Of a DNA stretch of 64,000 bases, positions 56,065 through 64,000 are shown in pieces. This DNA is from Parabacteroides distasonis (GTDB taxonomy: Bacteria > Bacteroidota > Bacteroidia > Bacteroidales > Tannerellaceae), in contig SUXM01000008.1 of NCBI GenBank assembly GCA_015060925.1, positions 1 to 64,000 of the forward strand. The letters are read 5' to 3'. Position 1 is the first letter of the stretch. Every line of letters starts with the position of its first letter. The translations under genes were made by a program, and so were the position numbers. The notes under the pieces are model-generated. The model was not told where the DNA came from. It worked only from the letters and a program-made list of their open reading frames with translations, and did no database searches.

Positions 56065-56093
56065 AACAAAATTCACTAACAGACTTACAAAAT
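56065..56093 (+). promoter_or_regulatory. 29-bp putative operator before the winged-helix regulator
   Basis: Begins AACAAAATTCACTAAC and ends ACTTACAAAAT. It matches 27 of 29 bases of a motif upstream of both NVEALA operons (60298-60326 and 63774-63802). Internal ACTAACA/ACTTACA half-sites suggest dimer binding. It ends 16 bases before the -7 box of the regulator. Confidence 0.65.
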
Positions 56094-56109
56094 CCATCTT
56101 TTTCTTTTT

Positions 56110-56141: not shown

Positions 56142-57173
56142 ATGAAAACACAGAAACGAACTCTCTATACTCTTTACGTAAGTATTGGTATCTTTTTACT
56201 TTCAATTTGTATTTTCCAAATAAATCAATTCAATAAAAAAACACAAAAGATTATCGAACAAGTTTTCTTACAAGCAATCGATAAAGATCTGTTCGAACGG
56301 TTAAATGCTTCAAAAGCAAATCTTATACGAGTATCCGGAGAAATCAACCAAACACAAGAAGCGACAACCGGCATTCAAATTCGATCTGCGACTTGTGACT
56401 CCATCATTCCTTACAACCGAGATGTAACAAGGGAAAAAATCCTTTTGGATAATCGTTATATCGATCAAACAATGACCCGTTTTGTAAACCCCATCCAACC
56501 GGAATCATTAGAAAAACGTTTCACATTTCTATTAGATAGCTTTGGGATAAAAGCACAAACTGCTATTACTTACTATGACAAAAAAGAGGGGAAAAGATAC
56601 CACAGCCATTCCGATATGTATCTCTACACCTCTTCTTTCCATTCAAATGTGATTTCTTTAGGGATAGAAAAAGAGATGGAGGTACAGGGATTTGTCCGTT
56701 TTACCCCATGCTGGTTATTTCAACCTATAGGAAAACACATCTTCTATAGTTTAATATTCTTTGGATTGTTTATATTATTCATAATAGATTTTCAATTGGC
56801 TATATCCAAACGAATGATAACCAAATACAGAAGTCAAAAACAACCAATCCAACCTCGAATCATATTACAGCCCAATGGTTGTTATCAAATAGGAACGATT
56901 CTTTTAAACACTCATAACGGAATATTGACAACTCCAAAACAGAGTTTAAATATAGGTAAACGACAGGAATATATTTTACTAAAAGCTTTTTTAGAAGCAC
57001 CTCATTTCCAATTATCACGTGAAAAGGTTTATTCGATTTTGAAAAAAGCAGACGAAAAATATTCAAATCAAGTTAATATGGTTATCAGCCGCCTCCGTAA
57101 ATTATTGGAAGACGACCCAAACATCAAACTTGAACTCCTCAACGAAGAGGTTTATCGGTTATCTTGTGTTTAA
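56142..57173 (+). CDS. Membrane-anchored winged-helix transcriptional regulator
   Basis: 343 residues. Membrane helices at about 9-27 (YTLYVSIGIFLLSICIF) and 202-222 (SLIFFGLFILFIIDF) flank a periplasmic domain of about 175 residues without a family I know. The cytoplasmic C-terminus (RQEYILLKAFLEAPHFQLSREKVY ... QVNMVISRLRKLLEDDPNIKLE) is an OmpR-type winged helix. It would sense something outside and bind DNA directly, in the manner of ToxR/CadC but with the DNA-binding end C-terminal. It faces the NVEALA / propeller array, converging with its last gene (15-base overlap). A 58-base remnant of its 3' end lies inside that array. Confidence 0.85.
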   Translation: MKTQKRTLYTLYVSIGIFLLSICIFQINQFNKKTQKIIEQVFLQAIDKDLFERLNASKANLIRVSGEINQTQEATTGIQIRSATCDSIIPYNRDVTREKILLDNRYIDQTMTRFVNPIQPESLEKRFTFLLDSFGIKAQTAITYYDKKEGKRYHSHSDMYLYTSSFHSNVISLGIEKEMEVQGFVRFTPCWLFQPIGKHIFYSLIFFGLFILFIIDFQLAISKRMITKYRSQKQPIQPRIILQPNGCYQIGTILLNTHNGILTTPKQSLNIGKRQEYILLKAFLEAPHFQLSREKVYSILKKADEKYSNQVNMVISRLRKLLEDDPNIKLELLNEEVYRLSCV

Positions 57174-57710
57174 TACCTGTTTTATAAAAAGTTCCTTTAT
57201 TGCCTCCTTTTGAACCGGATTTCCGACAACAAGTACCTTGTTTTCTTTATCCAACAAAAAGGTTTGAAATCGTGTGTCAGTCGGAAAATGGTTCAATCTG
57301 TTTAATTTCCCTTTAGTATCAAGAACTACCGGATAATCAAAACGGTTTTCCCTTAAAATTTCTTCCATTCGGGAAACGTTTCTCACATCCAAAATAAATA
57401 AGAAAGATATGTTATGATTTGTTACCGAATCCAATACTGGGATCATCTTTTTCCATTTAGATAACTGTAATTTACAACTTAAACAATCCAACGAGTCAAC
57501 ATAAACAAACGTCTTAAACGGTCTATTCAAATAGGAATAATCTATCGTATCAACAGCATATTTCGTAAAGATTAAATCTTTCGGAATCTTAATTTTTTTC
57601 CCTTGCCATTCCCTCAAGATTGAGGGTATATCTGCCGGTTTATCCGAACAAGAAAGGATAATGAAAACCAAACAAAAACAACAAGCGATAAATCGAATAT
57701 ATCTTTTCAT
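57159..57710 (-). CDS. Thioredoxin-like lipoprotein with CxxC
   Basis: 183 residues. The lipobox IILSC gives Cys21 as lipid anchor. YVDSLDCLSCKLQLSKW (about 73-89) is a thioredoxin-fold active-site position with CLSC; FDYPVVLDTKGKLNRLNHFPTDTRFQTFLLDKENKVL has the cis-Pro-like and strand pattern of TlpA-type proteins. Predicted periplasmic thiol-disulfide protein. It overlaps the membrane thioredoxin-like gene by four bases (translational coupling) and its 3' end overlaps the convergent regulator gene. Redox activity on the cysteine-rich peptides of this locus is my inference. Confidence 0.82.
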   Translation of the reverse strand: MKRYIRFIACCFCLVFIILSCSDKPADIPSILREWQGKKIKIPKDLIFTKYAVDTIDYSYLNRPFKTFVYVDSLDCLSCKLQLSKWKKMIPVLDSVTNHNISFLFILDVRNVSRMEEILRENRFDYPVVLDTKGKLNRLNHFPTDTRFQTFLLDKENKVLVVGNPVQKEAIKELFIKQVLNTR

Positions 57711-58330
57711 TTAAAAAAATATTTTTCTACAAGTTTCAAATAGTTATCAGATAATAAGACATTTGTTTTATCTACGATAATTAATTTATCTATGATTCGA
57801 TTATCTGATAGCATAAAAGCCATTGCATAATCATTATATTCCGGAAAGATATCCAAGTCACGATCAATCCGAAAAACTTCCAATCCTATCGCATTTTCTT
57901 GTAAAAAAGATTGATAACTCCTATGATTTTGAAATTTTCCAATAACAATCACCTGTTCTTTCCCAATTCTACCAGCAAGTTCACTCACTTTTTTCAAGAA
58001 AGGCAAGGAACATACTGTACAACTTTGTTCCGAAAAATAATAGATCAACTTAGGATTTTCAGAAAGTAATTTTCCTAAACTTATACTGTCTTTATTCTCT
58101 TTATACAGAAGAATATCTTTTACGATTTTTCCTTCTGCAAAATACTGCAATTTCGATATAACAGCTAAATTCTCTATTACATACTGTTTTTCAGCATCTA
58201 ATTCTTGTAACTTCTCTATTTGTTGATTTTTCTCTTTGACTAAATGTTGGTTCTTTATTGAGAAATAACTTAAAAATATTGCCAGTAATACAAAAATCAC
58301 CGGCAAAAAATGATTCGAAAGACTCTTCAT
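57707..58330 (-). CDS. Membrane-anchored thioredoxin-like protein with CxxC
   Basis: 207 residues from the ATG at 58330, chosen because it begins the membrane anchor (HFLPVIFVLLAIFLSYFSI, about 6-24) and lies 14 bases after the propeller stop, as the downstream ORFs do in the two sister copies. A coiled-coil-like stretch follows, then YYFSEQSCTVCSLPFLKKV (about 100-118) with the CTVC active site. Probably a periplasmic thiol oxidoreductase or reductant partner. The downstream lipoprotein thioredoxin overlaps its end by four bases. Confidence 0.8.
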   Translation of the reverse strand: MKSLSNHFLPVIFVLLAIFLSYFSIKNQHLVKEKNQQIEKLQELDAEKQYVIENLAVISKLQYFAEGKIVKDILLYKENKDSISLGKLLSENPKLIYYFSEQSCTVCSLPFLKKVSELAGRIGKEQVIVIGKFQNHRSYQSFLQENAIGLEVFRIDRDLDIFPEYNDYAMAFMLSDNRIIDKLIIVDKTNVLLSDNYLKLVEKYFFK

Positions 58331-58343
58331 AATCACTCTCTTT

Positions 58344-59549
58344 TTAAAACTCTTTGACTTTGATACGCAATAAAACCGGATTGTCATCCTCCTTTAAGGT
58401 CGTACACATCTTGACCAAATCCGGATATTTTGATTTAAACTCTGCACGGCGAGGTTCTGACAAGTTGGACATATACTTCCGATACCCCTCTATCAAATAC
58501 GATGGCTCCACCTCCCACAAAATATCCCCGTTATCACTGTTGTGAGGTAGCAATCTAAAAGTAAGAGGAAAGATATTTCCTTTAAAAAACATATCATCTT
58601 CCAGTTTACGAGCTGAAATAGTTTTTCCTGTATTTTTTGAATACAACGTAATATATGCTTGATAATATTTATTGTGAGAGCCTATATACAAGTAATGTTC
58701 TGCTAATCCAAAAGAAGTTAAACATATATAATCATCTAAACTTGACAACTTCTTTATCATTACATCATGTTCATCTGATAAATCAAATAATTCTTCCGGA
58801 ATCTGCTTGTTTCCATAATTAACATAATAAAAAGGACGAACATTTTCATTTTGTATTTCAAAAATAGTATCCCTATAAGGATAATTTAAATAATAAGAAT
58901 TATCGTAAAAGATTAAAGATCTTAAATTTATACGATTCGAACTAATTTTTACTTCATTCTCTTTACGCTTAAAAAAACGAGCTTCAACAACACCTTCATC
59001 ATTCATCTGATTTAATAAAGTAAAACCTTTTCTGTCAGAACCAAAATTATATACAAGATAAGAACTATCCTTTCTTTCTAAAAACTCTTTCACCTGTTGC
59101 TCTATCTTATATTCCTTAAAAAATCGTCCCTGTTTGTCATACTTTATCAATTTAAAATTGGTTGCTATAACCACATATTCATCCGTTACCAAAAAATCTG
59201 TGATATCGATATACTCGCCCGGTCCATAACCTCTCTGAGATATTTTACGGCAAAATTGTCCGGAAGAATTAAATACTAACAACTTTGAATCCATCAACGA
59301 CCGAGTTGAGTGAATATAATATAAACTATCTGCATAAACGATACGATTTACATCACTGATTAAACTTTCATCCGTAGTTTCCAATGGGATAAACTCTATC
59401 GTATCCACAAATTGGGAGAATTTCAGCTTATCCACTAAACTGGATTCAAAATCAATTGTAATTAAATCTTTATTTCGTAGAGATTCGGTTTGTTCCTCTT
59501 TACAAGCAAACAGAATCAACCCAATAAGTAAAAAAATAGATTTTTTCAT
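58344..59549 (-). CDS. Six-bladed beta-propeller lipoprotein, copy 1
   Basis: 401 residues from the ATG at 59549, matching the starts of its two paralogues. Lipobox LILFAC places Cys at about 16. Then SLRNKDLITIDFESSLVDKLKFSQFVDTIEFIPLETTDES, the typical opening of the six-bladed beta-propeller family (DUF5128/DUF4934 type), and four to six propeller blades (ISQRGYGPGEYIDITDF is a blade core). The last about 70 residues are nearly identical in all three copies. Family members are outer-surface or periplasmic lipoproteins found with NVEALA peptides; a ligand is not known. The two thioredoxin-like genes follow in the same operon. Confidence 0.87.
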   Translation of the reverse strand: MKKSIFLLIGLILFACKEEQTESLRNKDLITIDFESSLVDKLKFSQFVDTIEFIPLETTDESLISDVNRIVYADSLYYIHSTRSLMDSKLLVFNSSGQFCRKISQRGYGPGEYIDITDFLVTDEYVVIATNFKLIKYDKQGRFFKEYKIEQQVKEFLERKDSSYLVYNFGSDRKGFTLLNQMNDEGVVEARFFKRKENEVKISSNRINLRSLIFYDNSYYLNYPYRDTIFEIQNENVRPFYYVNYGNKQIPEELFDLSDEHDVMIKKLSSLDDYICLTSFGLAEHYLYIGSHNKYYQAYITLYSKNTGKTISARKLEDDMFFKGNIFPLTFRLLPHNSDNGDILWEVEPSYLIEGYRKYMSNLSEPRRAEFKSKYPDLVKMCTTLKEDDNPVLLRIKVKEF

Positions 59550-59567
59550 TTTAAGTATAGAATTTAT

Positions 59568-59608
59568 AAAGACAATATATACCCAATCATTGAGCATATA
59601 CTGTCTTT
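59568..59608 (-). terminator. Hairpin between NVEALA peptide and propeller, copy 1
   Basis: Arms AAAGACA / TGTCTTT extended by about ten further pairs with two mismatches. The equivalent in the second block (63044-63084) is an almost perfect 20-bp stem. Partial termination or RNA processing here would make more peptide than propeller transcript. Confidence 0.6.
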
Positions 59609-59618
59609 AAGTTAAAAA

Positions 59619-59879
59619 TCAACAAGGAACTTGTTCTTGAACATGACAAACCACATTTCCACCAACCAATACACAAATAGAACAATTACCTTGATATCTC
59701 ATTTCAAAACCTTGACAAATCATACAATGGGAAGTTTCTCCACTTGCCAACGCCTCCATATTTTCTAAAGTCAAATCAGACAAATCCACTTCATTTCTAC
59801 TTTGATACACATTCCAACCGGCTGTTAAAGCCATCATGATGACACTCAATGCTACTCCTATTCTTTTCTTTGTTTTCAT
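59619..59879 (-). CDS. NVEALA-type peptide with six cysteines, copy 1
   Basis: 86 residues. MKTKKRIGVALSVIMMALTAGW is a signal or membrane segment; LSDLTLENMEALASGE (about 34-49) is a variant of the NVEALA motif and resembles a double-glycine-type leader end. The predicted mature part has six Cys as two CxxC pairs (CMIC, CSIC) and two single Cys, then ends in Cys. NVEALA proteins are Bacteroidales-specific small exported proteins of unknown function. A sister copy at 63095-63355 differs mainly in the MRYQGN stretch between the CxxC pairs. Confidence 0.85.
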   Translation of the reverse strand: MKTKKRIGVALSVIMMALTAGWNVYQSRNEVDLSDLTLENMEALASGETSHCMICQGFEMRYQGNCSICVLVGGNVVCHVQEQVPC

Positions 59880-59999
59880 ATCTATTCTTTTTAATTTGTT
59901 TTTTATAATTCATAATCAACAACTACATCTGTTTTTCATAAACTTATCTACTTCCTTTCTTAGTTCCACCTCCTTCCCTTTTATCTTTTAATTTCTTTT

Positions 60000-60230
60000 T
60001 TATCTTAAAGGCCCTACCACATAAGCCACTTTTGCATCTGTTCTCGGACAATCCACATCTCCAAATCCATAACAATAATAGATACCATTATCGCCTTCAC
60101 CTTGTGCCAATGCTTCTACATTTTCCAATGTCAAATCTGAAAGTAACTTTCTATCCTCATAACCTTTCCCTATATTAAAAAGGATAGCTCCTACAACTAA
60201 TAAAATCAATAAAACAAGTTTCTTTTTCAT
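60000..60230 (-). CDS. NVEALA-type peptide, two cysteines, copy 1
   Basis: 76 residues. MKKKLVLLILLVVGAILFNIGKG is a signal segment; LSDLTLENVEALAQGE (about 34-49) is the NVEALA motif itself. The tail has two Cys (YYCYGFGDVDCP) and ends VAYVVGPLR. The amino-acid sequence is identical to the copy at 63476-63706. First gene of its operon; the putative operator lies 68-96 bases upstream. Probably exported and cleaved after GE; function unknown. Confidence 0.87.
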   Translation of the reverse strand: MKKKLVLLILLVVGAILFNIGKGYEDRKLLSDLTLENVEALAQGEGDNGIYYCYGFGDVDCPRTDAKVAYVVGPLR

Positions 60231-60297
60231 AATTTTTTACATTTAAAAATCTACACAAAAGTCTTATCAATCTCCCATATAAACGCTTTCACGCACT

Positions 60298-60326
60298 AAC
60301 AAAATCCACTAACAGACTAACAAAAT
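60298..60326 (-). promoter_or_regulatory. 29-bp putative operator before NVEALA operon 1
   Basis: AACAAAATCCACTAAC ... ACTAACAAAAT on the plus strand, identical to 63774-63802 and 27 of 29 to 56065-56093. Relative to transcription the motif is reversed compared with the regulator gene. Confidence 0.65.
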
Positions 60327-60337
60327 AAAAACAACCA

Positions 60338-60395
60338 GAAGACGACCCAAACATCAAACTTGAACTCCTCAACGAAGAGGTTTATCGGTTATCTT
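60338..60395 (+). pseudogene. Remnant of the regulator gene's 3' end
   Basis: 58 bases identical to 57108-57165, the last codons of the winged-helix regulator (encoding DDPNIKLELLNEEVYRLS). It marks the edge of a tandem duplication of the locus in which the rest of the regulator and the thioredoxin-like genes were lost. Confidence 0.9.
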
Positions 60396-60486
60396 ATTTA
60401 AAATAATCAATGCATATTTCTTTGTAAACTCTCTTATCCAATCGCCAAATAATTTTTACTTCCAGGTCTGTCGCAAAATATCTCAT
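60394..60486 (-). CDS. 30-residue ORF after propeller copy 2
   Basis: Encodes a product starting MRYFATDLEVKIIWRLDK; its sister at 61705-61800 differs at a few positions. The start is 13 bases after the propeller stop with the same spacing sequence seen before the membrane thioredoxin gene at 58330. It may be a real small protein or the collapsed remains of a longer gene lost in duplication. I recognise no family. Confidence 0.4.
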   Translation of the reverse strand: MRYFATDLEVKIIWRLDKRVYKEICIDYFK

Positions 60487-60499
60487 AATCACTCTCTTT

Positions 60500-61708
60500 T
60501 TAAAACTCTTTGACTTTGATACGCAATAAAACCGGATTGTCATCCTCTTTTAAGGTCGTACACATCTTGACCAAATCCGGATATTTTGATTTAAACTCTG
60601 CACGGCGAGGTTCTGACAAGTTGGACATATACTTCCGATACCCCTCTATCAAATACGATGGTTCCACCTCCCACAAAATATCCCCATTATCACTGTTGTG
60701 AGGAAGCTTTTTTCGATTTATTGGTAAAATCATCCCTTTTAAATACAAATCATCTTCTATTTTACGAGTAGAGATGGACTTTCCTGTTTTTCGAGAATAT
60801 AAAGTCAAAAAATGTTGATAAATTTTGTTTGTTGAATTTACATACATATAATGACCAGCCACACCAAATGAGTTTATAAAAAGATAATCATTTAATTTTG
60901 CTAACTTCTCATCTATAACCTTATAATGGTCTGATAACTCAAACATATCCGGTATCGCTTTATCCCCATAATCGATATAGAACAAAGGCTTTACCTTTTC
61001 ATCTTCTATTTGAAAAATTGTATCACTAAATGGATGATTAAAATAATAGATATTATTCCAGGATTCCAAACCTCTCCAATGTATACGGAAATCATTGATT
61101 CTTGCTTCTGATTCATTTCGTTGAAAAAAACGTTTTTCTACTTTTCCATCATCATTCATTTTAAACAAAAAATTCAAATCATTTGACCTTGTTCTAAAAA
61201 CAAAAGCAAAAAAAGTCGTATCATTAATAGGAATAAACTCTTTTACCTGACTTTTAAGTTCTATTTTACTTTCTTTTATAAATTGCCCCAACTTATCATA
61301 GCTTATAAATTTAAAATAAGAGATCACATTTATTCGTTCTTTTGTCAAAAGAAAATCTTCAAAATCATTATACTCTCCAGGCCCATTTCCCCTTTTATTT
61401 AATCCCCACAAAAACTTTCCTTTCTTATCAAACACAAATAAATTGGCATTTTGCATTCCTCGGGTTACCCGTATATAATACTTTTCATCATCATAAATAA
61501 TACGTTGTATCTCCCCTATCAAATTCTCATCCGTTGTTTCCAATGGGATAAACTCTATCGTATCCACAAATTGGGAGAATTTCAGCTTATCCACCAAACT
61601 GGACTCAAAGTCGATTGTAATTAAATCTTTATTTCGCAAAGAATCGGTTTGTTCCTTTTTACAAGCAAACAGAATCAACCCTATAAGTAAAAAAATAGTT
61701 TTTTTCAT
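60500..61708 (-). CDS. Six-bladed beta-propeller lipoprotein, copy 2
   Basis: 402 residues. Lipobox LILFAC with Cys16, then KKEQTDSLRNKDLITI and the FIPLETTDENLI blade opening. NKRGNGPGEYNDFEDF is the blade core equivalent to that in copy 1. Residues about 60-330 differ widely from copy 1 and moderately from copy 3, while both ends are nearly identical. Its start overlaps the stop of the 31-residue ORF upstream by four bases (ATGA), implying coupled translation within one long operon that begins with the NVEALA pair at 63.4-63.7 kb. Confidence 0.87.
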   Translation of the reverse strand: MKKTIFLLIGLILFACKKEQTDSLRNKDLITIDFESSLVDKLKFSQFVDTIEFIPLETTDENLIGEIQRIIYDDEKYYIRVTRGMQNANLFVFDKKGKFLWGLNKRGNGPGEYNDFEDFLLTKERINVISYFKFISYDKLGQFIKESKIELKSQVKEFIPINDTTFFAFVFRTRSNDLNFLFKMNDDGKVEKRFFQRNESEARINDFRIHWRGLESWNNIYYFNHPFSDTIFQIEDEKVKPLFYIDYGDKAIPDMFELSDHYKVIDEKLAKLNDYLFINSFGVAGHYMYVNSTNKIYQHFLTLYSRKTGKSISTRKIEDDLYLKGMILPINRKKLPHNSDNGDILWEVEPSYLIEGYRKYMSNLSEPRRAEFKSKYPDLVKMCTTLKEDDNPVLLRIKVKEF

Positions 61709-61800
61709 TTTAAGATAAAATCAATGCATATTTCTTTGTAAACTCTCTTATCCAATCGCCAAATAATTTTTACTTCCAGGTCTGTCGAAAAATATCTCAT
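61705..61800 (-). CDS. 31-residue ORF between propeller copies 3 and 2
   Basis: Encodes MRYFSTDLEVKIIWRLDK and a short tail. The stop overlaps the next propeller start (ATGA). The start is 13 bases after propeller copy 3. Conservation of a second copy at 60394-60486 and the coupled stop favour translation, but the duplication is recent, so conservation is weak evidence. Confidence 0.45.
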   Translation of the reverse strand: MRYFSTDLEVKIIWRLDKRVYKEICIDFILK

Positions 61801-61813
61801 AATCACTCTCTTT

Positions 61814-63025
61814 TTAAAACTCTTTGACTTTGATACGTAATAAAACCGGATTGTCATCCTCTTTTAAGGTCGTACACATCTTGACTAAATCCGGATATTT
61901 TGATTTAAACTCTGCACGGCGAGGTTCTGACAAGTTGGACATATACTTTCGATACCCCTCTATCAAATACGATGGTTCCACCTCCCACAAAATATCCCCA
62001 TTATCACTATTATGAGGCATTTTCTTTATTGTTATAGGTAAAATCATCCCTTTTAAAAATATATCATCTTCTATTTTACGAGTAGAGATAGACTTTCCTG
62101 TTTTTCGGGAATATAAAGTCAAAAATGACTGATATACTTTATTGATTGAACAAGCATATATATAATGATCTGCTATCCCAAAGGAGTTAATATAAAAATA
62201 ATCGTCTAATCTAGATAACTTTTCATTAATGATATTATAAGGATCTGATAATTCTAAAAGATTTTCTGGAATAGACTTATCACCATAGTTTACATAAAAC
62301 ATTGGTCGTACATTTTCTTCTTGTATTTGAAAAATTGTATCACTAAATGGATGATTTAAGTAATAGATATTATTCCATAAATCAAGACCTTTCCCATGTA
62401 TCCGATAATCGTTAGCTCTTGCTTCTGACTCATTTCGTTGAAAAAAACGTTTTTCCACTTTTCCATCACCTTTCATTCTAAACAAAAAATTCAAATCATT
62501 TGACCTTGTTCCAAAAATCAAAGCAAGGAAAGTCGTATCATTAATAGGTACGAATTCTTTCACTTGGTTTTCAAGTTCTATTTTACTCTCTTTTATAAAT
62601 TCTCCCTGTTTATCATAACTTATAAACTTAAAAAAGGAAATTACATGAATCTGATTTTCAGTAATGGAAAAATCAACAAAATCATTGTATTCACCGGGGC
62701 CGTTTCCTCTTTTATTTAATCCCCACAAATATTTTCCTTTCTTATCAAACACAAATAAATTGGCATTTTGTATACTACGAGTAGTTCTAATATAATATTT
62801 TTCATCATCATAAATAATACGCCTTACCTCTGCAATCAAATTTCTATCCGTAGTTTCCAATGGGATAAACTCTATCGTATCCACAAATTGGGAGAATTTC
62901 AGCTTATCCACCAAACTGGACTCAAAATCGATTGTAATTAAATCTTTATTTCGCAAAGAATCGGTTTGTTCCTTTTTACAAGCAAACAGAATCAACCCAA
63001 TAAGTAAAAAAATAGATTTTTTCAT
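61814..63025 (-). CDS. Six-bladed beta-propeller lipoprotein, copy 3
   Basis: 403 residues. Same lipobox (LILFAC) and opening (SLRNKDLITIDFESSLVDK) as the others; RIIYDDEKYYIRTTRSIQNA and NKRGNGPGEYNDFVDF are blade cores closest to copy 2. The last about 70 residues (HNSDNGDILWEVEPSYLIEG onward) match the other two copies. It follows the Cys-rich NVEALA gene and a strong hairpin. Lipid-anchored and exported by signal; binding partner unknown. Confidence 0.87.
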   Translation of the reverse strand: MKKSIFLLIGLILFACKKEQTDSLRNKDLITIDFESSLVDKLKFSQFVDTIEFIPLETTDRNLIAEVRRIIYDDEKYYIRTTRSIQNANLFVFDKKGKYLWGLNKRGNGPGEYNDFVDFSITENQIHVISFFKFISYDKQGEFIKESKIELENQVKEFVPINDTTFLALIFGTRSNDLNFLFRMKGDGKVEKRFFQRNESEARANDYRIHGKGLDLWNNIYYLNHPFSDTIFQIQEENVRPMFYVNYGDKSIPENLLELSDPYNIINEKLSRLDDYFYINSFGIADHYIYACSINKVYQSFLTLYSRKTGKSISTRKIEDDIFLKGMILPITIKKMPHNSDNGDILWEVEPSYLIEGYRKYMSNLSEPRRAEFKSKYPDLVKMCTTLKEDDNPVLLRIKVKEF

Positions 63026-63043
63026 TTTAAGTATAGAATTTAT

Positions 63044-63084
63044 AAAGACAGTCTATGCCCAATTATTGAGCATAGACTGTCTTT
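63044..63084 (-). terminator. Hairpin between NVEALA peptide and propeller, copy 2
   Basis: Arms AAAGACAGTCTATGC and GCATAGACTGTCTTT pair perfectly, and the stem continues almost to the loop. Several base pairs differ from the 59568-59608 copy on both arms together, keeping pairing and suggesting the structure is selected. Confidence 0.7.
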
Positions 63085-63094
63085 AAGTTAAAAA

Positions 63095-63355
63095 TCAACA
63101 AGGAACTTGTTCTTGAACATGACAAACCACATTTCCACCAACCAATACACAAGTAGAACAATTATTTGAAACAACCATTTCAAAACCTTGACAAATCATA
63201 CAATGGGAAGTTTCTCCACTTGCCAACGCCTCCATATTTTCTAAAGTCAAATCAGACAAATCTACTTCATTTCTACTTTGATACACATTCCAACCGGCTG
63301 TTAAAGCCATCATGATGACACTCAATGCAACTCCTATTCTTTTCTTTGTTTTCAT
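63095..63355 (-). CDS. NVEALA-type peptide with six cysteines, copy 2
   Basis: 86 residues, same signal segment and LTLENMEALASGE motif as copy 1. The tail keeps all six Cys (CMIC, CSTC, then two single Cys) but changes the loop before the second pair to MVVSNN. Substitutions restricted to the predicted mature part fit diversification of the secreted product. It follows the two-cysteine peptide gene in the same operon. Confidence 0.85.
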   Translation of the reverse strand: MKTKKRIGVALSVIMMALTAGWNVYQSRNEVDLSDLTLENMEALASGETSHCMICQGFEMVVSNNCSTCVLVGGNVVCHVQEQVPC

Positions 63356-63475
63356 ATCTATTCTTTTTAATTTGTTTTTTATAATTCATAATCAACAACT
63401 ACATCTGTTTTTCATAAACTTATCTACTTCCTTTCTTAGTTCCACCTCCTCCCCTTTTATCTTTTAATTTCTTTT

Positions 63476-63706
63476 TTATCTTAAAGGCCCTACCACATAA
63501 GCCACTTTTGCATCTGTTCTCGGACAATCCACATCTCCAAATCCATAACAATAATAGATACCATTATCGCCTTCACCTTGTGCCAATGCTTCTACATTTT
63601 CCAATGTCAAATCTGAAAGTAACTTTCTATCCTCATAACCTTTCCCTATATTAAAAAGGATAGCTCCTACAACTAATAAAATCAATAAAACAAGTTTCTT
63701 TTTCAT
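63476..63706 (-). CDS. NVEALA-type peptide, two cysteines, copy 2
   Basis: 76 residues, amino-acid identical to the copy at 60000-60230, including LTLENVEALAQGE and the YYCYGFGDVDCP tail. First gene of the long array operon. The putative operator lies 68-96 bases upstream at 63774-63802. Exported small protein, function unknown. Confidence 0.87.
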   Translation of the reverse strand: MKKKLVLLILLVVGAILFNIGKGYEDRKLLSDLTLENVEALAQGEGDNGIYYCYGFGDVDCPRTDAKVAYVVGPLR

Positions 63707-63974
63707 AATTTTTTACATTTAAAAATCTACACAAAAGTCTTATCAATCTCCCATATAAACGCTTTCACGCACTAACAAAATCCACTAACAGACTAACAAA
63801 ATGAAGAAGAATTCTTCATAATTCCAATATGAAATTACCTCGGACTTATTTTCAATTACCTCGGAGGTAATCTCCACTTTCCCGGCGACTAATTTCTATT
63901 TACTTTTATATAGGTTTTCCATTATAAAAAGTTTCATTATTTTTGTGCCATAACAATCTAAAATAGATAACGAT
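63707..63974. other. Upstream region of the array and of a new plus-strand gene
   Basis: Contains the second NVEALA operator (63774-63802), a GAAGAATTCTTC palindrome (63806-63817), two ATTACCTCGG copies ending in the palindrome ATTACCTCGGAGGTAAT, and a TATTTTTG box at 63938-63945 reading on the plus strand. Confidence 0.5.
63774..63802 (-). promoter_or_regulatory. 29-bp putative operator before NVEALA operon 2
   Basis: Identical to 60298-60326 and 27 of 29 to the copy before the regulator gene. Lies 68-96 bases before the first peptide start. Confidence 0.65.
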
Positions 63975-64000
63975 ATGCTCCATAGTCCGAGACTCATTAT
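63975..64000 (+). CDS. Start of a possible gene running off the window
   Basis: ATG at 63975, 30 bases after a TATTTTTG box, reading MLHSPRLI before the window ends. Too short to identify. Confidence 0.3.

Follow-up and report, generated by a model that had tools for sequence, protein, structure and literature searches.

NVEALA peptides, propeller lipoproteins and a membrane sensor-regulator in Parabacteroides distasonis: a candidate peptide-pheromone cassette of the Bacteroidota

In Gram-positive bacteria, class II bacteriocin clusters such as those of plantaricin, sakacin, Blp and ubericin K (for the ubericin K cluster, PMC8515946) carry a three-component system of pheromone, histidine kinase and response regulator, and in the Bacteroidales the clusters for bacteroidetocins and for ribosomally synthesized and post-translationally modified peptides (RiPPs) pair double-glycine (GG) leaders with C39 transporters (PMC10352776). 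A literature search for NVEALA, the family name under which the peptides studied here are filed, found no papers, and no description of such peptide signaling in Bacteroidota was found among the matches listed. Here we consider a locus at positions 56142-63706 of a 64,000-nucleotide stretch of Parabacteroides distasonis DNA (contig SUXM01000008.1 of assembly GCA_015060925.1, positions 1 to 64,000; hereafter the window), for which an initial annotation had listed a regulator, four NVEALA peptides (two with six cysteines), three propeller lipoproteins and two CxxC proteins. Every one of these genes was confirmed from the list of open reading frames (ORFs) and a Pfam profile search.

Comparative sequence analysis places the locus in a multi-gene cassette, of which there are further copies in the source genome and which is found in several Bacteroidota families. 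The cassette itself, the link between its sensor and one class of peptide (type A), and the unit formed by a second class (type B) with a propeller all emerge directly from that comparison. It is likely that through the cassette cells release peptides of their own and sense them; that it is a peptide-pheromone circuit controlling peptide-propeller pairs is a reading for which we see the chances as evenly balanced.

Sensor and peptide A

The sensor-regulator of the window (56142-57173, plus strand, 343 aa) is predicted from PF00486, hydropathy and a family alignment to comprise a transmembrane (TM) segment, a periplasmic domain, a second TM segment and a cytoplasmic winged helix of the OmpR/PhoB type. 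Its hydrophobic segments lie near residues 7-27 and 199-223, its C-terminus matches Trans_reg_C (PF00486, E 5.3e-7), and the Pfam search of this protein returned Trans_reg_C only, with neither Response_reg nor kinase domains, so it is not a two-component response regulator, nor is it a histidine kinase. The peptide usually adjacent to such a sensor, type A, has the form N-x-x-A-L-A-x-x-E followed by about 30 residues containing C-x3-G-x3-C (the invariant residues of 36 aligned rows), and exactly two cysteines are present in 64 of 71 A-like peptides. The window has two minus-strand copies of 76 aa, copy 1 at 63476-63706 and copy 2, with its C-x3-G-x3-C, at 60000-60230, both matching PF14055; in copy 1 the predicted cleavage after EALA, as placed by peptide alignments, would expose QGE. 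A predicted structure of peptide A (helix 3-42, strands 52-60 and 67-72, pTM 0.28) was not used as evidence.

How regularly do sensor and peptide occur together? A profile (A1) was made from six regulators of the source genome, five with a divergent adjacent NVEALA gene and the sixth being the window's, and searched against 123 genomes of the family, with 60 regulator places examined among the matches listed. A divergent adjacent NVEALA gene was found at 51 of 68 regulator ORFs, with a median gap of 184 bp, and was absent at 17. Because the profile was built on source-genome regulators that mostly stand beside NVEALA genes, we also give the count without that genome: with its six regulators and two double-counted fragments removed, 45 of 60 regulators have such a neighbor. 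With the peptides as the starting point instead, a scan of named genomes gave 28 loci, eight of them already in the regulator-started count, and in 23 of the 28 a sensor, in either a winged helix-turn-helix (wHTH) or a kinase form, adjoins type A. Twenty of these have the family regulator (which in five Bacteroides loci is not divergent but shares the strand of A) and three a Sphingobacterium kinase; no sensor was seen at the remaining five. Conserved co-occurrence in other genomes, which the initial annotation had proposed as a check on its model, was therefore found from both starting points, as well as in the operon census described below. The distribution of the system is patchy: of 395 genomes sampled across the phylum, the NVEALA profile matched 3 at E 1e-8, and the window's genus accounts for two of these. 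Searches of protein databases with the regulator returned few relatives (7 and 5), and a search of a plasmid collection returned one match. With a whole-family sensor profile (A2) run over the order, most listed matches were to the winged helix only, and at most five candidates per genome were scored, so this search has little bearing on absence.

A change of orientation or of output domain does not part peptide A from the sensor. The output differs in three Sphingobacterium loci (L162-L164), where a histidine kinase (HATPase_c), divergent from peptide A, and a response regulator replace the regulator. This kinase matches the regulator profile from the first TM segment through the periplasmic part to the second (in L163 the clean alignment covers residues 1-241). 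Since the kinase shares the membrane-periplasm-membrane segment of the regulator and stands beside A, the input domain stays with the peptide while the output is swapped from wHTH to histidine kinase. The same association can be seen in covariation. Over 46 pairs, mature A correlates with the periplasmic domain when winged helix and leader are controlled for (partial Mantel r 0.197, p 0.001), and its correlation with the winged helix is lower (0.102, p 0.064). The set of sensor-peptide pairs excludes L138 and the two fragments into which the L128 regulator is split, and the Mantel set also excludes L045, the adjacent peptide of which is truncated to 52 aa in the source genome, and L081, a near copy of L043. 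The split regulator belongs to a Parabacteroides massiliensis locus (L128:1483-2557 = L141:5701-6775) in which the sensor-regulator is spread over two frames.

The regions between sensor and peptide genes contain candidate operators. Among the direct repeats of 45 non-redundant sensor-peptide intergenic regions a spacing of exactly 11 bp is strongly over-represented (z 13.0), with other spacings between 7 and 23 bp reaching z 3.6 at 22 bp and at most 1.7 elsewhere; 11 bp is the spacing used by winged helices of the OmpR/PhoB type. The repeat sequence varies between loci, and for this reason the circuits look insulated from one another. In the window an operator-like element, CACTAACAGACTTACAAAATC, lies upstream of the regulator (56074-56094, plus strand), and a pattern search placed further copies upstream of type A copy 2 (60307-60327, plus strand) and of type A copy 1 (63783-63803, plus strand), each with one mismatch to the first, so that there are three matches in the window where 0.01 is expected. 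Its 19-nt core, at 56075, 60308 and 63784, precedes the regulator and both A genes and, with up to two mismatches allowed, has no other site in the 2.54 Mb genome; the reversed control pattern gave one match. The operator of a second regulator recurs once, exactly, on another contig, before an orphan A gene (L044:10977-11207). This gene is one of three type A peptides seen with no adjacent regulator (the others being L044:14147-14386 and L042:7744-7974), and near these are gene copies that we take to encode a PD-(D/E)XK transposase-like (Rpn) protein.

Peptide B and its propeller

The initial annotation treated the four peptides as one kind. They do share the NVEALA leader, and all four pass the PF14055 cut-off (46.2-46.3 bits against 27; E 3.4e-12 to 3.7e-12), but they fall into sensor-linked A and propeller-linked B, a division that we draw here. 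Peptides downstream in the cassettes are mostly of type B, with a conserved leader and a diverse mature part, and an even, non-zero number of cysteines is present in 89 of 99 B-like peptides; the cysteine counts for both types exclude matches without A[LI]A and those longer than 200 aa, and two Sphingobacterium type A peptides are counted among B. The two B peptides of the window (copy 1 at 63095-63355 and copy 2 at 59619-59879, minus strand, PF14055) are each 86 aa long with six cysteines after the motif. On the same strand are three six-bladed propeller lipoproteins that match PF17170, the DUF5128 propeller family: P1 (61814-63025, E 2.6e-36), P2 (60500-61708, E 9.4e-40) and P3 (58344-59549 from its likely start, with the ORF extending to 59597; E 2.5e-41). 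Their scores of 125.8-142.4 bits exceed the cut-off of 22.9, and all three have a lipobox-like N-terminal start.

Types of B recur across genera, the GPK type, for instance, in Parabacteroides, Proteiniphilum and Sphingobacterium, and this allows the inheritance of B and of its neighbors to be compared. There were 21 cross-genus pairs of similar B (similarity limit 0.38), in 13 of which a downstream gene was present on both sides and in 13 of which the upstream genes were comparable. The similarity of the downstream propellers was at or above the 95th percentile in all 13 measurable pairs, and at or above the 99th in 11, whereas none of the 13 upstream pairs reached the 95th; a thioredoxin control, measurable in one pair, fell at the 31st percentile. 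Another count of similar B pairs gave 38 of 38 at or above the 97.8th percentile, or 37 of 37 after removal of one Sphingobacterium type A pair. A locus of Phocaeicola massiliensis (L186; OY726023.1 107854-124093) served as an out-of-sample test. It has a sensor, an A peptide, a thioredoxin-like gene and then four B-propeller pairs, and for the best-matching B of each the propeller ranked 1, 2, 1 and 1 of 80 whereas the upstream gene ranked 47, 49, 66 and 63, with two of the four best B matches (0.33 and 0.31) being under the 0.38 limit. The L186 record is labeled a plasmid, and its cassette adjoins genes that we take to be ffh and folD from their resemblance; with such neighbors it may be chromosomal.

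The match of downstream propellers, the lack of one for upstream genes and the agreement of L186 show that the B-propeller unit is inherited as a module. What does the propeller do for its peptide? One answer is that it is a chaperone or carrier that folds or exports its own B, the target of the peptide lying elsewhere, in a host, a rival or a nutrient. Inheritance of B and propeller as a match would be expected of such a maturation pair, and the lipobox-like propeller starts and thioredoxin-like neighbors are in keeping with it; however, no result here separates a carrier from an immunity protein or a receptor, and we rate this answer as unlikely.

Leader, signal peptidase and cassette composition

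The initial annotation read the end of the leader as GG-like, a reading that the alignment does not support. In 174 peptides aligned without a motif filter, alanine is present at positions -3 and -1 in 99% and glutamate at +3 in 98%, whereas the glycine at +2, the supposed leader end, is present in 64%; in an unfiltered recount, 8 of 179 distinct NVEALA matches lacked the A[LI]A motif. Substrates of signal peptidase I in Bacteroidetes typically expose glutamine (the Q-rule), and Parabacteroides distasonis was among the species examined (PMC5837995); the preference for glutamine at +1 in our alignment runs in that direction. The near-invariance of ALA and of the glutamate at +3, the variable glycine and the signal peptidase I genes within the operons together make a cut after ALA by signal peptidase I likelier than one at a GG-type site. 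Could the peptides nevertheless have GG leaders, cut and exported by a C39 peptidase transporter? The spacing of hydrophobic residues in the leader resembles that of double-glycine leaders, and a glycine at +2 in nearly two-thirds of the peptides would agree with it. But it is alanine and glutamate that are conserved and not the glycine, an N-terminal hydrophobic segment is present, and the census gene clusters with at least three members included no ABC transporter that we saw (the search did not extend to C39 proteins outside the operons), whereas signal peptidase I recurs there, all of which makes this explanation very unlikely.

The signal peptidases of the cassettes form a clade (support 98/95) apart from both housekeeping types, in a tree whose bootstrap had not settled and whose Sphingobacterium row is long-branched. 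A peptidase of this type is found in 42 of 61 NVEALA genomes and in 11 of 62 without NVEALA (p 9e-9, kinship ignored), and within the window's genus in 21 of 23 versus 0 of 15. The source genome has a single one, at the end of contig C4, beside thioredoxin-like and propeller fragments.

For the operon census, which ran from type A onward, there were 69 starts, of which three had been counted twice (L145, which is the same as L088, and the second A in both the window and L153), leaving 66 distinct operons. Operons end where the locus ends, so that all counts are lower bounds, and Pfam was run on a few representatives. Propellers were present in at least 58 of the 66, B peptides in at least 52, a CTSCK thioredoxin-like lipoprotein in at least 49, a transglutaminase-like lipoprotein (with transglutaminase matches below the model cut-off) in at least 31, signal peptidase I in at least 22 and a Wzy_C membrane protein in at least 18. 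The window contributes two thioredoxin-like proteins, both on the minus strand. The first, a CLSC lipoprotein of 183 aa (57159-57710), belongs to the CTSCK cluster (cluster 2) and resembles StoA (NF041202, E 1e-5, below the model cut-off; PDB 3erw, E 1.3e-6), and the second, a membrane-anchored CTVC protein of 207 aa from its likely start (57707-58330, with the ORF extending to 58387), falls in cluster 10 of the census and has a weak, below cut-off match to Redoxin (E 0.047). Seven loci (L096, L098, L108, L137, L167, L120 and L136) have an extra gene downstream of the cassette or of a regulator-propeller locus, with a pump-like gene behind it in five. From sequence likeness we take the extra gene to be an efflux adaptor of the resistance-nodulation-division (RND) type, which may be an export route or mere synteny. 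In Bacteroides thetaiotaomicron, BT0662-BT0669 include an O-antigen ligase, a propeller, a signal peptidase and an RND adaptor; PMC10434189 gives p values of 0.11-0.44 with mixed signs for their response to iron, and we do not infer iron regulation from it.

In the window the array runs on the minus strand in the order A1-B1-P1-P2-A2-B2-P3-Trx-Trx, with the regulator, on the plus strand, facing it from the far end. The block is a tandem duplication, marked by a 68-nt remnant of the 3' end of the regulator that sits as a scar at 60338-60405 (plus strand), with 94% identity to 57108-57175. None of the 231 nt differ between the two A copies. Twelve of 261 nt differ between the B copies, 10 of them in codons 61-68, inside the predicted mature part. 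Identity among the three propellers is 100% in the last of the 30-aa windows compared and drops in middle windows to 57% (P1-P2) or 33% (P1-P3 and P2-P3). Might such an array simply be decaying, a duplication with no present function that is kept by recombination? The regulator remnant and the truncated peptide of L045 would suit that explanation, but the frames are open, the cysteines are conserved, the operators are specific to their loci and the conservation extends across orders, and we regard it as extremely improbable. The source genome (41 contigs, 88% complete) has 24 NVEALA and 12 PF17170 matches. Several draft contigs (L040, L043, L044, L049 ends) break within propeller-like or lipoprotein genes of such cassettes, and because of these breaks the number of cassette copies is probably underestimated. 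Beyond the array, on the opposite strand (window 63976-64000; L050:8976-11754), are two further open frames, which from their motifs we take to be a sulfatase and a radical-SAM maturase-like gene.

A proposed circuit and its nearest relatives

How might these parts work together? The peptides, with their N-terminal hydrophobic segment and conserved N-x-E-A-L-A-x-x-E, would enter the inner membrane, and signal peptidase I, which in many genomes the cassette itself encodes, would cut them after ALA. Their cysteines would pair in the periplasm, where the thioredoxin-like lipoproteins could form or proof-read the bonds. Mature A would then bind the periplasmic domain of the sensor, and the signal would pass directly to the winged helix in the form seen in the window, or to the histidine kinase and response regulator in the Sphingobacterium form. 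The winged helix would bind the tandem repeats in front of the regulator and the A genes, which would complete a feedback loop, and the sensor would turn on operons of variable type B peptides; that the effect is activation and not repression is a guess. Each co-inherited B would act with its own propeller as a matched pair, most probably of an effector and a cognate immunity or receptor protein, following the logic of class II bacteriocin clusters. Sensing, cleavage, binding, release and biological effect are thus steps that we infer.

Several of our observations count against such a circuit. Fifteen of the 60 regulators outside the source genome have no adjacent NVEALA gene; two of these are interrupted by contig ends, and six (L090, L100, L101, L118, L120 and L136, by Pfam) adjoin a divergent propeller gene instead, so that the sensor may answer to something handled by propellers. 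In the window itself, regulator and array are convergent, not divergent, and the operator-like element is not a regular 11-bp repeat, the half-sites being 13 and 8 bp apart. The Mantel coupling of mature A to the periplasmic domain is modest, and the leader also correlates with that domain (0.114, p 0.041, same 46 pairs). A predicted structure of regulator residues 28-204 (pLDDT 81, pTM 0.74) gave no clear fold match, with nothing in Foldseek at E <=0.001, and since the best rows of a second structural aligner mix kinase sensor domains, dynein light chains and ribosomal proteins, no fold, a PAS-like one included, is claimed. Regarding processing, glutamine is the commonest residue at +1 but at 30% only; between the best hydrophobic window and the ALA site there is a median of 24 residues, a longer gap than in ordinary signal peptides. 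The cassette-type peptidase is absent from 19 of the 61 NVEALA genomes (drafts), only 26 of its 67 genes have an NVEALA gene within 15 kb on their own contig (drafts, among the matches listed), and in genera other than the window's the association is weaker (21 of 38 versus 11 of 47, p 0.003). Lastly, co-inheritance of neighbors is evidence of a unit, not of contact, and these counts ignore shared ancestry.

The six regulators with a propeller and no adjacent NVEALA gene would suit a sensor that responds to envelope, redox or ligand stress and not to A, with peptides and propellers being induced by the stress and the thioredoxin-like proteins, so frequent in the operons, being the true purpose. 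But peptide A is the gene that is kept beside the sensor through changes of orientation and output, mature A covaries more strongly with the periplasmic domain than it does with the winged helix, and the variability of B and its matching to the propeller are hard to square with a general stress answer, so that we hold this sensor of envelope state to be somewhat unlikely. The initial annotation had proposed that secreted disulfide peptides are bound by propellers and sensed by the periplasmic domain of the regulator. Apart from its GG leader, that model gains independent, if indirect, support from our sequence comparisons, because co-occurrence is conserved, the sensor segment stays with A across the output swap, and B shares its inheritance with the propeller downstream of it but not with the gene upstream; we consider it partly supported.

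If the pheromone circuit is real, it would be a new logic of peptide signaling for the Bacteroidota. NVEALA, DUF5128 and the TolB_like propellers are named families for which we met no function, and one testable framework can now be offered for them, in which the sensor has a predicted ligand, an operator has been located, a candidate enzyme can be named for the predicted cut site, and peptides are matched to propellers in pairs. More tentatively, one may imagine that the Bacteroidota have a peptide language of their own, in which pheromone circuits, insulated because no two share a peptide, sensor or operator, control a mobile repertoire of lock-and-key modules of peptide and propeller. Such modules would be exchanged among genera and orders and would diversify at home, with a dedicated signal peptidase maturing the peptides.

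Among known systems, ToxR and CadC share with the window's regulator a periplasmic sensing domain and an OmpR-type winged helix in one membrane protein, and the profile, in its wHTH part, matches structures of both. Their domain order is reversed relative to that of the window's regulator, in which the two TM segments come first and the winged helix last, as in a kinase sensor with the kinase replaced; SusR is also a membrane-integrated regulator. The four window peptides match PF14055, but that family is a name without a function. The RiPP and bacteroidetocin clusters likewise have small leader peptides in Bacteroidales, whereas neither GG leaders nor C39 transporters were seen to recur in the cassettes (C39 was not searched for genome-wide).

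A further comparison is with the three-component bacteriocin clusters. We have not adopted the label of bacteriocin cluster, since the GG/C39 feature was not seen in the cassettes (ALA in 98-99% of peptides, the glycine in 64%). The hosts here are Gram-negative, most loci have a one-component membrane wHTH, the leader is of an AxA/signal peptidase type and not a GG/C39 type, the partner is a propeller lipoprotein of about 350 aa, as opposed to an immunity protein of 50-150 aa, and no antimicrobial activity is known for the system. The place of a cognate immunity gene may be taken by the matched propeller after B. In layout the two are alike: the sensor gene adjoins a peptide that shares its leader type with the other peptides (the window's regulator facing the array from the far end), each of those peptides is followed by its own partner gene, a processing gene is present in many clusters, and direct repeats stand at the promoters, at 11 bp in the family and, in the window, as an internally irregular element that occurs three times.

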